From contig NZ_JBGKAD010000001.1 of the NCBI RefSeq assembly GCF_041361345.1, positions 434,001 through 498,000 on the forward strand: DNA of 64,000 bases. The letters are read 5' to 3'. The notes under the pieces were generated by a model. That model saw only the letters and a list, made by a program, of their open reading frames with translations, made no database searches and had not been told where the DNA came from. This document shows, one piece after another, positions 15,941-21,660 of the stretch. The position numbers and the translations under genes are program-made. The DNA comes from Halobaculum sp. MBLA0147. GTDB taxonomy: Archaea; Halobacteriota; Halobacteria; Halobacteriales; Haloferacaceae. The number at the start of each line of letters is the position of its first letter. Within the stretch, counting starts at the first letter, position 1.

Positions 15941-16978
15941 TCACCACAACGAGTAGACGTGTTCCTCGTACGTCTCGCGGACCCCCTCACCCCAGTTGTG
16001 CGTGTAGGTGTCGATGATGTCGTCGGCCACGTCACCGCGGAGGTACTTCACGACGCCGCGGTCGCCGGTTCGCTCGCGGAGGTGGGTCGTGAAGAAGTGC
16101 CGGAAGTAGTGGGGCGTCACGTTCTCGGTGGCCCCGGCACCGTCGCGGTACCACCCCTCCCGGCGGGCGTGGTCGCGGACGATCCGCTGGACTTGTTCCG
16201 GCGTCAGTCGCTCACCCCAGCCCGACGCGGTGCCGACGAACAGCGGCTCCGCGGGGGAGGTGGTGTCCGGACGGATCGCGAGCCACCGGCGGAGCGTCGT
16301 CGCCAACTCGTCGTCGACCGGGATCACGGTGTCGCGTTTCCGCTTGTTCGAGGCCGTCCGCTCGGCGCCGTTGTACGACTCCCCGACGGCGGGCTCGCTG
16401 GCGACGAACAGCGAGTTCGGCCGGCCCTCCAACTGGACGCGCCCACCCAACTCGTACTCCCCCACGTCACCGTCCAGCGTGAGGTCCCGGAGATCGAGGT
16501 TACACAGCTCGCCGACACGCATCCCGGTCTTCAACAGGGTCACGATCAGGGCCCGCTCCAGCGGGTGACGGATCTGGCCGACGAACGACCGCATCTCGGG
16601 GACGGAGATCTCGCGGCGCGTCGGATCGGGGTCGATCCGCTCGTCCAACTCCTCGACGACGAGCGCCATCGGGTTGGCGTCGAACGCGCCGACCTGTGTC
16701 ATGTACGCGTAGAAGCGGTGGAGGTACGCCGCGTACGTGGCGACCGTCGAGTCGGCCAACTCCGGGTCCGTCCGGAGGTCGTGGACGAACGCGGTACAGT
16801 CCCGGTGGACCGCCTCCTCGGGAGCGAGACCGTCGCGTTCGGCGGCGAGGAACGCCCGGAACCGCGAGAGCACTCGCTCGTACTCCGTCCGCGTCCGCTC
16901 GCTCTTCCCGTGGAGCTCCATGTCCGTGAGGAAGAAGTCGACCGGGTCGTCGACCGCCTCCGTCCGCGCGCTACTCAT
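15941..16978 (-). CDS. Tyrosine recombinase/integrase (XerC/D-like)
   Basis: A 345-residue site-specific recombinase. The N-terminal SAM-like core-binding domain spans about 10-110, the catalytic domain about 120-345. Catalytic residues visible: R154 (TGMRVGELC), a lysine in the beta-hairpin KRKRDTVIPV, the H290-x-x-R293 pair (PHYFRHFF) and nucleophile Y325 (DTYTHNW). The usual second His of LGH is replaced (YLRGDVADD). It overlaps the DUF5805-like gene upstream by 8 bp, forming a two-gene operon. No tRNA or att repeat is recognisable beside it, so it may be a resident chromosomal recombinase rather than a fresh integrative element. Confidence 0.9.
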   Translation of the reverse strand: MSSARTEAVDDPVDFFLTDMELHGKSERTRTEYERVLSRFRAFLAAERDGLAPEEAVHRDCTAFVHDLRTDPELADSTVATYAAYLHRFYAYMTQVGAFDANPMALVVEELDERIDPDPTRREISVPEMRSFVGQIRHPLERALIVTLLKTGMRVGELCNLDLRDLTLDGDVGEYELGGRVQLEGRPNSLFVASEPAVGESYNGAERTASNKRKRDTVIPVDDELATTLRRWLAIRPDTTSPAEPLFVGTASGWGERLTPEQVQRIVRDHARREGWYRDGAGATENVTPHYFRHFFTTHLRERTGDRGVVKYLRGDVADDIIDTYTHNWGEGVRETYEEHVYSLW

Positions 16979-17528
16979 CGAGCACGTACCCCCCTTCGCG
17001 ACCGCTGTAGGTCACCGGACCGGACTCGATCAGCGAGGACATCGTCTCGTCGAGTCGCTCCTCGAAGTCACCCATCACCGCGTCGAGCAGGTCGTCCCAC
17101 GAACACACTCCCCGCTCCGAGAGCACGCCGAGAACCCGGTCTTCCAGGCCGCCAACCCCAGGGGTAGCGTCGCCAGTCCCGGGTTCGACGGCACTCACGT
17201 CGTCGACGGGTGCCGAACTGCCCGGATCGGTCGTCTCGGCGCCGCTGTCGACCGTGTGGGACTCCTCACCGCTCGTTCCGTCGGCCACAGCAGTGTCTCG
17301 CTCGTCGGTCTCGTTAAACTCGTCACCAGTGTCGGTATCGTCGCCGGTGTCGGGGTCGTCCGTGCCGTGCGAGTCGTCGGCGAGTCCGAGTTCCCGACGG
17401 CCCGCCTGGACCATCGTCCGGACGAACTCGCTCTGGCTCATCCCCAGTTCTTCGGCGTCTGCGCGCCACGCCTCCTTCTGGTAGGCCGGCACCCGCGTGG
17501 TGACGGGCGTCTGCTCGTCGGTGGACAC
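16971..17528 (-). CDS. DUF5805-like protein with ribbon-helix-helix N-terminus
   Basis: A 185-residue protein. Residues 8-45 (VTTRVPAYQKEAWRADAEEL, then MSQSEFVRTMVQAGRRELGL) look like a ribbon-helix-helix DNA-binding fold. Residues 50-125 are a long acidic Asp/Thr/Gly linker. Residues 130-185 form a small helical domain (LEDRVLGVLSERGVCSWDDLLDAVM) that resembles a winged helix. Proteins of this make-up in haloarchaea are, to my knowledge, annotated DUF5805 and often accompany an integrase, as here. A likely role is accessory or regulatory DNA binding for the recombinase. The start is a GTG. Confidence 0.75.
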   Translation of the reverse strand: MSTDEQTPVTTRVPAYQKEAWRADAEELGMSQSEFVRTMVQAGRRELGLADDSHGTDDPDTGDDTDTGDEFNETDERDTAVADGTSGEESHTVDSGAETTDPGSSAPVDDVSAVEPGTGDATPGVGGLEDRVLGVLSERGVCSWDDLLDAVMGDFEERLDETMSSLIESGPVTYSGREGGYVLDE

Positions 17529-18577
17529 GTCTCACCGCTGGGCCCCCACCCACAAGTGTCTGATGCACGTGCGTGCCCTAAAGCCCTAAGACAGGCCTTC
17601 GAATCACGGGTGCCACTCCAATCGGCCGTGTACGGCGGGTTCTGGGCGTCTCGACGGTCGAGTCCGGCGAGGACCGTGTACTCATTTCTCTGTCTTACTG
17701 CACGACCCCGGTCCCCCCGACCGAGTGGACGAACCGACCACTCCACGGTCCGGTTGCGGTCCGTGCCGACGGGAGTTGAGGTCCGACCAGACGACAGCCC
17801 ACCCGGTCGGTCCAGACCCGACGACGTTCGCGGGTCCGTCGAGTCGGAGCCGTTGCGCCCCCGGGACTACCTCGACACCACCCGCAGGCGACCACTACCA
17901 GTGCCGTGTTCCCGGTCGACGGAGAGCGGGAGGTGTCGCCGGGTCGTCCGGCACGCCGCCGGGTCCGAACGAGGATCGGCGACGGGAGTGACCCGGGCAG
18001 CGACGACCACCACGGACGGCGCGACCGGGCCCCAGTGGACGACGGCGCGAGTCGGAAAGCCGGAGCAGAGAGACCGCCGACACCCGAGGCGGGAGAGACG
18101 AGCGACGAGGGGTGTGGTCCGACAGGTCCGCGGGCCCCGCGGATGCCAGCCGCGAGGACCGGCGACTCCAGGTCCGTCGCCAGGGTACCCGAGTGGTGTT
18201 TCTCGATCGACTGTGGCCGGTCGGTCCACGTGGGAGATCGAGAACGTGGCCAGAACGGACTGCCTGTGGCGAGTCGACAGCGCGCGGCAGTGGTGCGACT
18301 CGGTCGTTTCGCCGCGTGGCGTTCGGTCCACGGTACACAAATTGTATGTCGCTATACAGACGGCTCGCCCGGGAGTGACCTCGCGAACTCGCCCCTCGGG
18401 GGGCGCGGCGTTCCTGCTCGACGAGGACCACACCGTCGGGTTCCGAGTTACCGGGAGCCGAGCCCGAAACACGGCGAGACGACCAGACGACGCTACCGCC
18501 CGTCGGTTTAGACTCGTCTAACGATCTAGTTAGACCGAAGCCATTACGTGTGTCAGTCGTCTTCACTCCGGACGAGT
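17529..18577. other. Gene-free region of about 1 kb between integrase operon and metal importer
   Basis: No reading frame here has haloarchaeal character: all are arginine/serine/proline-rich and none has a recognisable domain on either strand. Visible elements are a TTTAGG-type TATA site for the DUF5805-like gene (minus strand, near 17578-17584), an AT-rich patch around 18335-18357 (TACACAAATTGTATG and CTATACAG), and the operator candidate at 18508-18535. A sequence near 17599 resembles a tRNA T-loop but its flanks do not pair. It may be a decayed integrated element or hold an unrecognised RNA. Confidence 0.5.
18508..18535. promoter_or_regulatory. Palindromic operator candidate upstream of the Zn/Mn importer
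   Basis: A perfect inverted repeat TTAGAC-TC-GTCTAA occupies 18508-18521, and a third half-site TTAGAC follows at 18530-18535. The group ends 42 nt before the ATG of the substrate-binding protein gene. Position and symmetry fit a dimeric metalloregulator (DtxR/SirR or Fur type) controlling metal uptake; the regulator identity is inference. Confidence 0.65.
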
Positions 18578-19648
18578 ATGACCGAGCACACGTTCGAACC
18601 GCGACGCGTGAGTCGTCGCGAGGCACTGGCCGCCGGCGCAGGGGCGGCAGTCGCCGGGTTGAGTGGCTGTCTCTCGGGCGGTGGACAGACGAGTGGATCG
18701 ACGGGCGACTCGGCGGCGGACGACGGGCCGACGGTCGTGGCGTCCTTCTTCAGTTTCTACGACTTCGGCCGCGAGATCGCCCGCGACACGCCGATCACCG
18801 TCGAGAACCTCGTTCCGACGGGCCTGCACGGCCACGGGTGGGAACCCAACACGAGCGTCACCAAGCGGATCGTCGAGGCGGACGCGTTCCTCCACGTCGG
18901 CCCGGACTTCCAGCCGTGGGCCGACAGAGCGATCCGGACGATCGAAGACGACGGGGTCGACACGATGTTGATCGACGCCCGCGAGGGGATCGAGTTGGCG
19001 AGTCTCGCCGCCACGCTCGACAGCGACGAGGAGGGTGTCGGCGAGAACCGTGGGAAGGACCCGCACTTCTGGCTCGACCCGCAGCGCGCGAAGCAGAGTG
19101 TCGACAACATCACCGAGGGGTTCGTCGCGTTGGCCCCAGACGCCGAGGATCGGCTCCGAGAGAACGCGGAGCGGTACAAGACGGAGACGCTCGAGCAGAT
19201 CGACGCGGACTACCGGGCCATCTTCGACGCGGCCGAGCGCGACGTGGTGCAACTCGCCGCCCACAACGCCTTCCAGTACATCGGACTGCGGTACGGCGTC
19301 GAGATGCGGCCGCTCGTCGTCAACTTGGCCGCCAGCGGCGACGTGAAGCCCTCGGACATCGTCGACGCGAAGCGGGTGATCTCGGAGAACGACATCCGGT
19401 ACATCGCGAACGGCGTCTTCGAGTCCCGCCGCCCCGCGAAACAGCTCGTCGCGGAGACGGCGGTGGAGGCGTACTTCCCCGTCACGCCGTACGCCGGCGT
19501 CCGCGAGGAGTGGGTCGAGGAGAACTGGGGGTACGAAGAGATCGCGTACAACATCAACATGCCCACGTTCGAGATCGTCCTCGGTAACGTCGCCCCCGAG
19601 GAGATCGAGATCGACGGGTGGACCGACAAGTGGCGGAACTTCGAGTGA
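18578..19648 (+). CDS. Zn/Mn ABC transporter substrate-binding lipoprotein
   Basis: A cluster A-I (ZnuA/TroA-type) metal-binding protein of 356 residues. The N-terminus has a Tat motif (VSRREALAAGAGAAVAG) ending in a lipobox LSGC, so it is exported folded and lipid-anchored outside the membrane. Metal-site features are conserved: GLHGHGWEPNTS, KDPHFWLDPQ and AAHNAFQYIG supply histidines. The His-rich acidic loop of zinc-specific ZnuA is absent, which would also suit manganese. The ATG at 18578 starts the signal. It is followed after 6 nt by the ATPase gene and then the permease gene, making a complete importer operon behind the palindromic operator candidate. Confidence 0.92.
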   Translation: MTEHTFEPRRVSRREALAAGAGAAVAGLSGCLSGGGQTSGSTGDSAADDGPTVVASFFSFYDFGREIARDTPITVENLVPTGLHGHGWEPNTSVTKRIVEADAFLHVGPDFQPWADRAIRTIEDDGVDTMLIDAREGIELASLAATLDSDEEGVGENRGKDPHFWLDPQRAKQSVDNITEGFVALAPDAEDRLRENAERYKTETLEQIDADYRAIFDAAERDVVQLAAHNAFQYIGLRYGVEMRPLVVNLAASGDVKPSDIVDAKRVISENDIRYIANGVFESRRPAKQLVAETAVEAYFPVTPYAGVREEWVEENWGYEEIAYNINMPTFEIVLGNVAPEEIEIDGWTDKWRNFE

Positions 19649-19654
19649 TCTACA

Positions 19655-20587
19655 GTGCGTACTGATACCGACGGAACGGAGCGGGATGGGGACCGTGGGA
19701 GTCGGGCTGCTCGGGGAGACGCCGCCTACCTCGCGACGGACGGGACGAACCTCGCGACGGACGGCGGTACCCCCGTGACGGGCGGGACGAACCTCGCGGC
19801 GGACGGCGGTACCCCCGTGACGGACGGACCAGCCACGGAGGTGGACGCCGAGCGGGTGATCGAGTTGACGAACGTCACGTTCGGCTACACCGCGACACCA
19901 GTGATCGAGGACGTGACACTCGGGATCGAGCCCGGGGAGTTCGTCGCCGTCGTCGGCCCCAACGGCTCCGGGAAGTCCACGCTGATGGAGCTGATGGTCG
20001 GCCTCCGACGGCCCGACGAGGGACGCGCACGGCTGTTCGGCGAGCCGGCACACCGGTTCGACGACGGCGAACGGCTCGGCTACGTCGCCCAACACGCCAG
20101 CGCGTCCAAGGAGATGCCGATCACCGTCCGCGAGGTGGTCCGGATGGGCCGGTTCCCACACGTCGGGTTCGGCCGACTGGACGCCGACGACGAGGCGATC
20201 GTGGACGCCGCCATCGAGACGGTCGGGATGGACGCGTTCGCGAACCGGCGCGTCACGCAGTTGTCCGGGGGACAGCGCCAGCGAGCGTTCATCGCTCGTG
20301 CGCTCGCCAGCGAGGCGGACCTGCTCGTGTTGGACGAGCCGACGGTGGGCGTCGACGCCGAGTCCGTCGAGGCGTTCTACGATCTGCTGCAGACGCTCAA
20401 CGACCGCGGGATCACGGTGTTGTTGATCGAACACGACCTCGCGGCGGTCGTCGACCACGCCGACCGCGTCGTCTGTCTCAACCGTGCGGTGTACTTCGAC
20501 GGCCCGGCCGACGAGTTCGTCGACAGCGAGGCACTGGCGCGCGCCTTCGGCGGTGCGGCCGGGCTACTCGGAGGTGACGGGGCGTGA
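19655..20587 (+). CDS. Zn/Mn ABC transporter ATP-binding protein
   Basis: ATPase of the metal importer. Walker A is GPNGSGKSTL, the signature is LSGGQRQRAFIARAL, Walker B is LLVLDEP and the switch histidine is in LIEHDLAAVV. The ABC domain begins only around residue 66 (RVIELTNVTFGYT). The preceding 60 residues are an acidic extension containing a 14-residue repeat encoded by a 42-bp tandem DNA repeat. GTG codons at 19775 and 19817, one in each repeat copy, are equally possible starts, so the extension may be partly untranslated. The stop overlaps the permease start as GTGA. Confidence 0.92.
   Translation: MRTDTDGTERDGDRGSRAARGDAAYLATDGTNLATDGGTPVTGGTNLAADGGTPVTDGPATEVDAERVIELTNVTFGYTATPVIEDVTLGIEPGEFVAVVGPNGSGKSTLMELMVGLRRPDEGRARLFGEPAHRFDDGERLGYVAQHASASKEMPITVREVVRMGRFPHVGFGRLDADDEAIVDAAIETVGMDAFANRRVTQLSGGQRQRAFIARALASEADLLVLDEPTVGVDAESVEAFYDLLQTLNDRGITVLLIEHDLAAVVDHADRVVCLNRAVYFDGPADEFVDSEALARAFGGAAGLLGGDGA
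19741..19824. repeat. 42-bp tandem repeat at the start of the ABC ATPase gene
   Basis: Two copies at 19741-19782 and 19783-19824 of a unit beginning CGGGACGAACCTCGCG. Each contains an in-frame GTG that could serve as start codon. The period keeps frame (14 codons). Confidence 0.9.
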
Positions 20588-21660
20588 CGCCGCTCGTCGC
20601 CGGGGTGGTGGCGTGGCTCGGGTCGCTCGTCGCGCCGCCGCGAGGGGCGTCTCGTAGTGGGATCGGCCCGCTCCAGACGGAGCCCGACACGACCCTGTTC
20701 GAGCCGCTGTACGGACTGTTGGACCTGTGGTCGGCGCTGCTCTCGGAGGCCGCGAAGCTGACCGGGCTGGAGTTGATCCAGTACGGGTTCATGCACCGTG
20801 CGATCCTCGTCGGGCTGTGTATCGGGGTGATGGCCCCGCTGATCGGGACGTTCCTCGTCCACCGACAGCTCGCACTGATCGGGGACGCACTCGCACACAC
20901 CGGGTTCGCGGGCGTCGCCGTCGGGTTGTTCCTCAACGCGGTGATCGACCTCGGGGTGTCGCCGTACCTGACGGCGGTGATCGTCGCGATGATCGCCGCG
21001 CTGTGTATCGAGTTGATCTCGGAGGTGACGGACGCCTACAACGACGTGTCGATGGCGATCGTGCTCTCGACGGGGTTCGCCCTCGGGACGACACTGATCT
21101 CGCTGAACGCGGGTGGGTTGGCCGTCGGCGTCAACCAGTTCCTCTTCGGGAACCTCTCGACGGTGTCGAAGGAGAGCGCGGCGATCCTCCTCGTGTTGTT
21201 CGCGGTGATCGTCGGGACGGTCGGCCTGACTCGCAACCAGTTGCTGTACGTCACCTTCGACGAGCGCGCGGCGGCCGTCTCCGGCATCCCGGTGCGGTGG
21301 TACAACCGCGTCGTGGTGATGTTGACCGCGATGGTGGTCGTCGGCGCGATGCAGATCATGGGCGTGATCCTCGTCGCCGCGATGCTGGTGGTCCCGGTCG
21401 CGGGTGCGACACAGGTGTCCCGGAGCTTCGGCGAGTCGATCTTCGTCTCCATCGCACTCGCGGAGATCGCCGTCACGCTCGGGATCGCCGTCGCCTACTA
21501 CGGCGAGGCGACGGCGGGCGGCGTGATCGTCCTCGTCGCCGTCGGCGTGTACGTCCTCGCCGTGATCGCCGGGAAACTCCAGACGATGCTGTCCGACGAA
21601 CAGGCGGCAGAGACCGGTGGGATCGACGTCGACGCCGGACAGTCCGACCGCGCCGACTGA
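20584..21660 (+). CDS. Zn/Mn ABC transporter permease
   Basis: A 358-residue ABC-3-type (ZnuB/MntB) permease. After an N-terminal stretch of about 50 residues that includes one hydrophobic segment, it has about eight membrane helices. The family pattern VHRQLALIGDALAHTGFAGVAVG lies after the first conserved helix and is where the ATPase docks. MQIMGVILVAAMLVVPVAGA is the usual later helix. The C-terminus is short and acidic. It starts within the last codon of the ATPase gene (GTGA overlap), so the three importer genes are translationally linked. Substrate is zinc or manganese. Confidence 0.92.
   Translation: MTPLVAGVVAWLGSLVAPPRGASRSGIGPLQTEPDTTLFEPLYGLLDLWSALLSEAAKLTGLELIQYGFMHRAILVGLCIGVMAPLIGTFLVHRQLALIGDALAHTGFAGVAVGLFLNAVIDLGVSPYLTAVIVAMIAALCIELISEVTDAYNDVSMAIVLSTGFALGTTLISLNAGGLAVGVNQFLFGNLSTVSKESAAILLVLFAVIVGTVGLTRNQLLYVTFDERAAAVSGIPVRWYNRVVVMLTAMVVVGAMQIMGVILVAAMLVVPVAGATQVSRSFGESIFVSIALAEIAVTLGIAVAYYGEATAGGVIVLVAVGVYVLAVIAGKLQTMLSDEQAAETGGIDVDAGQSDRAD

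Follow-up and report, generated by a model that had tools for sequence, protein, structure and literature searches.

Genes and sequence elements at the locus

The window, a 64,000-nucleotide (64 kb) stretch of the Halobaculum sp. MBLA0147 genome, contains three consecutive forward-strand genes that encode a metal ABC importer. The first (18578..19648, ATG start) specifies the substrate-binding lipoprotein (Pfam ZnuA, PF01297, 153 bits) and is followed by the ATP-binding subunit (19655..20587; ABC_tran), whose start codon is uncertain and whose best NCBIfam match, AztA, falls below its cut-off, and by the permease subunit (20584..21660; ABC-3, PF00950, 194 bits). This order of binding-protein lipoprotein, ATPase and permease is that of the ZnuA/ABC-3 class. 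A longer open reading frame from 18548 for the binding protein is not needed, and the starts of its relatives match 18578. Just upstream of the importer region, on the reverse strand, a XerC/D-like integrase overlaps a DUF5805 protein (15941-17528), hinting at a mobile neighbourhood.

The intergenic region ahead of the binding-protein gene reads TTAGACTCGTCTAA at 18508-18521, a perfect palindrome (TTAGAC-TC-GTCTAA, assigned to neither strand), followed by CGATCTAG and then by a third, forward-oriented TTAGAC half-site at 18530-18535. This extra half-site begins 22 bp past the start of the palindrome, and the ATG at 18578 lies 42 nt beyond it. The arrangement had been pointed out in the original prediction, and it is readily seen in the sequence. 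Downstream of it, ATTACG (18543..18548, forward strand) is a weak, putative TATA-like element, assigned by alignment of position only: related promoters have a conserved TATA box at the corresponding location, +37 to +40 from the palindrome start. The exact palindrome has one match in the whole window, as does a composite of the palindrome core and TT-G at the third position. At up to two mismatches there are two matches against 0.51 expected, a number reached by 8 of 100 shuffles, so that the window alone is weak evidence for the palindrome.

Occurrence in the Halobaculum genome

Across the 4.29 Mb genome there are two exact copies of the palindrome and no one-mismatch copies, compared with one site at up to one mismatch for a reversed-palindrome control; at up to two mismatches, the 27 sites are background relative to the 23 of the control. 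Both exact sites stand directly before divalent-metal transport genes, and the random genomic placement that would have told against the original prediction was not observed. The second copy (G000:C1:2361861-2361874, or L002:1501-1514) precedes a GDT1/UPF0016 gene whose first usable start is 44 nt away (L002:1559-2272; PF01169, 81 bits); in its product, EFGDKT fits the E-x-G-D-K/R-S/T motif of the family. Every studied GDT1/UPF0016 member carries manganese according to the account in PMC7380456, which describes MneA and SynPAM71 as manganese exporters. The palindrome is found in the promoter of a predicted manganese or iron transport gene.

The motif had been held to differ from haloarchaeal DtxR-type sites, a view that calls for correction. 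TTAGGC-N2-GCCTAA, an iron-type palindrome of identical plan that differs by one base in each half, occurs at 16 sites when one mismatch is allowed, with none for its reversed control, against two for the TTAGAC palindrome. These sister sites, among them C1:2362805 (L010) and C1:674344 (L022), precede FecCD, a DtxR-type gene and proteins resembling iron-binding lipoproteins. The closeness of the half-sites and their presence side by side, in a genome that encodes further DtxR-type proteins, would suit a reading in which the iron-type regulators bind the TTAGAC palindrome as a mere variant of the iron box. We regard this as unlikely: the genome contains no intermediate one-mismatch TTAGAC sites, the two sets of sites precede different genes, and in 19 loci of the family the TTAGAC palindrome stands before the gene for an orthologue of one particular DtxR-family regulator, L016.

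Conservation among haloarchaeal relatives

In 99 genomes of the same family the exact palindrome occurs 53 times (reversed control, 4), with 43 of the genomes containing at least one copy. All 53 sites were classified by phmmer against Halobaculum proteins and by reading, and 47 belong to the importer type described here, a DtxR-family regulator, GDT1 or an ArsP_2 transporter. Twelve precede the binding protein of the same importer type, one (L066) precedes a degenerate start of that gene, and for another (L047/L269) the gene lies 1,680 nt on, behind an apparent inserted element. Nineteen stand before the L016 orthologue followed by GDT1, five before GDT1 alone, two before regulator paralogues (one at a distance of 228 nt) and seven before ArsP_2 transporters. 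Of the other six, one lies 129 nt upstream of an MgtE transporter with CBS domains (L052) and two, from two genera, occur in promoters of multicopper oxidases (L059, L069); for the remaining three family sites (L041, L044, L055) no plausible target was found. Further sites exist outside the family, where the 30 loci that were classified divide into 11 importer, 7 regulator-GDT1, 5 GDT1, 1 ArsP_2 and 6 other loci.

Importers of the same type keep the site at up to two mismatches in 50 of 52 cases, in a set composed of the 12 exact-site loci and 40 rows picked by eye on profile coverage, which left out some similar rows (for example in G059, G057, G015 and G070). Among the 40 promoters without an exact site, 27 have one mismatch, 11 two, one three (L185) and one six (L184); for each of the 38 good sites, 0 to 4% of the shuffled versions of its sequence gave an equally good match. 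No site at up to two mismatches precedes the 30 best-scoring other ZnuA-type importers of the same genomes, in a comparison that covered 390 nt per control locus and about 720 nt for the tested importers. Orthologous promoters therefore retain the site more often than chance would allow, related promoters with another function lack it, and of two importer types annotated alike only one has it.

These comparisons bear on whether the importer takes up zinc and has a promoter recognised by a zinc-responsive regulator. By sequence, the nearest matches of the binding protein are the YcdH and AdcA chains, which bind zinc, and three of its ligand positions still have histidine; the ATPase and permease resemble Azt zinc transporters with scores below the cut-offs. 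Nevertheless, a zinc regulon would be expected to share its operator with other ZnuA-type importers, and none of the 30 has it; moreover, the site accompanies GDT1, a family in which the members that have been studied transport manganese (PMC7380456), and also a DtxR protein that has carboxylate ligands. Zinc control accordingly appears quite improbable.

Two further observations concern individual loci. The transporter behind L276 looks ZIP-like by eye, and Pfam gave no match for it. In genus g34 of another family, L278, L280, L281, L282 and L284 have, from position 1501 on, an importer-type operator with third half-site and TATA, behind which lies a conserved stretch of about 300 nt with a strong hairpin at its start and no intact shared open reading frame. 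Conceivably, this stretch is a manganese-controlled small RNA; an Rfam search of L280-L282 gave no match to it, and no covariation was seen in four sequences.

A conserved third half-site

When the 50 importer promoters are aligned on the palindrome, the third half-site stands out as strongly conserved (T22 0.97, T23 0.95, G25 0.93), with TTNG(A) kept in relatives. TT[AC]GA occurs at +22 in 26 of the 50 and in at most 2 of the 50 at every other offset from 14 to 31, and by eye it stays at +22 in importers with the TATA element elsewhere. This conservation identifies the extra half-site as a conserved part of the operator at a fixed 22-bp offset, and the cross-genome comparison likewise supports the earlier suggestion of a metal-sensing repressor site that includes it. 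At roughly 10.5 to 11 bp per turn, the first and third half-sites would share one face of the helix.

A general promoter element was also considered for the third half-site and rejected, there being no peak of TT[AC]GA 9 nt before [CT]TATA: in 386 kb of other sequence, the combination occurs 0 times at that spacing and 5 times at 12 nt. Its constancy at +22 in importers with a differently placed TATA element also told against a general element. The same count weighs against the broader notion that the palindrome is a product of chance or of structure, such as a promoter motif or hairpin, with no dedicated regulator. Half-site-like TTNGA near the TATA box of regulator promoters would fit that notion, which is nonetheless very improbable given the excess of 53 sites over 4 and their concentration, across many genera, before a few gene families.

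Position of the operator relative to TATA

Similar comparisons can be made for the placement of the operator. It lies upstream of TATA in 40 of the 50 importer promoters, with an AT-rich peak 32 to 40 nt past the operator start, and downstream of a TATA-like element, as judged by eye, in the other 10. In the 19 regulator promoters it lies just downstream of TATA (AT-rich peak at -10 to -4), and in regulator-GDT1, GDT1-only and most ArsP_2 promoters it follows the TATA element and precedes the start codon. For other archaeal regulators, the accounts in PMC9426492 and PMC4158304 associate upstream sites with activation and downstream sites with repression. A clean rule by which an operator upstream of TATA would signify import and one downstream export is weakened by exceptions, namely the 10 importers, L291 and L299 outside the family, and three of eight ArsP_2 promoters examined (L075, L268, L288). 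Among the ArsP_2 (PF11449) loci, the operator follows the TATA-like element in L046, L050, L051, L053 and L067 and precedes it in L075, L268 and L288; the proteins look like two subtypes.

Taken at face value, a bound regulator should block the GDT1 and ArsP_2 genes. If binding requires manganese, GDT1, a supposed exporter, would then be shut at high manganese, which is odd for an exporter. Two tentative ways out, on which we would place less than even odds, are that GDT1 is indeed shut by manganese together with the importer, and so is no simple manganese-overload exporter, or that the DtxR protein binds in its manganese-free form as an activator of uptake and a repressor of export. The latter, if true, would be the reverse of the behaviour of its family.

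The candidate regulator and its operon

The regulator, left open in the original prediction, is very probably a DtxR-family protein of the MntR/SirR type, L016 (G000:C1:2747671-2748375). Three domains score above their cut-offs, for DNA binding (PF01325), for metal binding and dimerisation (PF02742) and for FeoA (PF04023), which places L016 in the DtxR family. Among solved structures it is closest to 5zr4 and 8pvt, which we take to be the MntR proteins of Mycobacterium and Deinococcus. Asp8 and Asp101, at the positions of IdeR Met10 and Cys102, are invariant in 18 of 18 regulators, and all 18 have Lys at the position of Bacillus MntR Glu11. L016 is consequently distinct from the Bacillus type of MntR, which has two domains and Glu11. 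The regulator occurs in all 99 family genomes, and its co-occurrence with the site is for that reason uninformative.

In the 19 family loci with a regulator-GDT1 operon, the palindrome precedes the ATG of the L016 orthologue with 7-14 nt between its end and that codon, an arrangement suggestive of autoregulation in relatives. Halobaculum itself has no such site before its regulator gene: the best match in the 3.2 kb locus has 4 mismatches, and autoregulation of L016 was dropped on that account. Among the 30 best-scoring GDT1 loci, the regulator gene is just upstream in 27, and in 21 of these the site, with two mismatches allowed, stands at its start. The other six all come from genus g3, in which 6 of 7 regulator sites have drifted to 3-4 mismatches and the importer sites persist. 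The g3 loci are L080, L082, L083, L084, L087, L088 and L091, with TTTGACGCGTCGAA as an example of a drifted regulator site, and the importers of this genus keep TTAGA..TCTAA.

In Halobaculum the regulator gene (C1:2747671) lies outside the operon, which is kept in three sampled congeners. Its GDT1 gene has no preceding regulator gene, and the GDT1 leader looks, by eye, like the two ends of that gene; it is possibly a deletion scar. Since GDT1 has kept the palindrome without the regulator gene, the site serves GDT1 as well and goes beyond autoregulation alone. In five genomes (G083, G044, G025, G013, G018), the strand that carries the binding-protein gene also carries, 2-4 kb further downstream, a regulator paralogue.

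Proposed mechanism and its metal

We infer that the element is the operator of L016, which with its metal would repress the importer as part of a manganese regulon, and we assign this reading a probability of about 0.82. A dimer of the regulator would bind the palindrome at 18508-18521. Another dimer, binding cooperatively, most likely occupies the third half-site at a distance of two helical turns from the first half-site, and would reach the BRE/TATA region. With Mn(II), and perhaps also Fe(II), the regulator would repress the znuA-type ABC importer under conditions of ample metal. Through this operator it would also control GDT1 and, in relatives, its own gene, ArsP_2 transporters and others. 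An operator common to importer, GDT1, regulator and ArsP_2 genes would mark a manganese regulon.

As to the metal, the likeness of the binding protein to YcdH and AdcA means that it could be zinc. The aspartate ligands, the relationship to 5zr4 and 8pvt and the lysine, as in DR2539, make manganese, possibly with iron, likelier than zinc. As to the sense of regulation, deletion of sirR in Halobacterium raises zurA, zurM and ycdH mRNA in the presence of manganese, and sirR mRNA otherwise rises and falls with importer mRNA, as described in PMC1779511; the review in PMC3600143 also concludes that SirR represses the importer with manganese. An operator downstream of a TATA-like element is in a place fit only for repression, and the 10 of 50 importer promoters with this arrangement, along with the Halobacterium data, favour repression by the metal-bound regulator. 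Counting against the proposal are the upstream operator of the other 40, a position linked elsewhere in archaea to activation, the missing site at the Halobaculum regulator gene and the drifted regulator sites of genus g3.

The proposed assignment gives a name to the operator, and very probably to the regulator, of manganese homeostasis across haloarchaea; it separates a manganese-linked importer from other ZnuA-type importers with the same annotation and accounts for the extra half-site as a phased part of the operator. It also poses a directly testable question, in that the site also occurs, placed so as to block, in front of a manganese-exporter family. Protection against oxidation and radiation by manganese is a known trait of haloarchaea, which makes such a switch of practical interest.

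Comparison with known systems

The TTAGAC palindrome was not found in searches of the printed literature, which do not prove its absence there. A comparison of archaeal DtxR and MntR proteins by Leyn and Rodionov in 2015 reportedly predicts palindromic DtxR-family motifs and MntR regulons and may include this one.

Individual features are shared with two bacterial regulators. DR2539 of Deinococcus radiodurans shares with L016 a Lys in the position of MntR Glu11 and an SH3/FeoA-like domain, and it represses a manganese importer in response to Mn(II) and Fe(II); its target, as given in PMC3327659, is a bacterial NRAMP importer rather than the ABC importer found here, and the account used here mentions no palindrome. 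SloR of Streptococcus mutans provides a parallel for neighbouring sites, with DtxR-family dimers binding cooperatively to several adjacent elements and repressing manganese importers. Unlike the importer operator described here, the SloR elements are presented in PMC12096823 as 6-6-6 elements in a bacterial promoter, with no lone phased half-site.

There is also an archaeal counterpart. In Halobacterium, SirR and zurM-zurA-ycdH likewise combine a DtxR-family protein, repression with manganese and an importer of the same kind (PMC1779511, PMC3600143); the accounts used here give no operator sequence. The three-domain architecture with FeoA, like that of L016, is named SirR in Haloferax mediterranei (PMC11218638), and its domain make-up makes L016 a putative SirR orthologue. 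The TTAGAC palindrome is a well-conserved and largely expected kind of control element, belonging to a kind of system that is already known.
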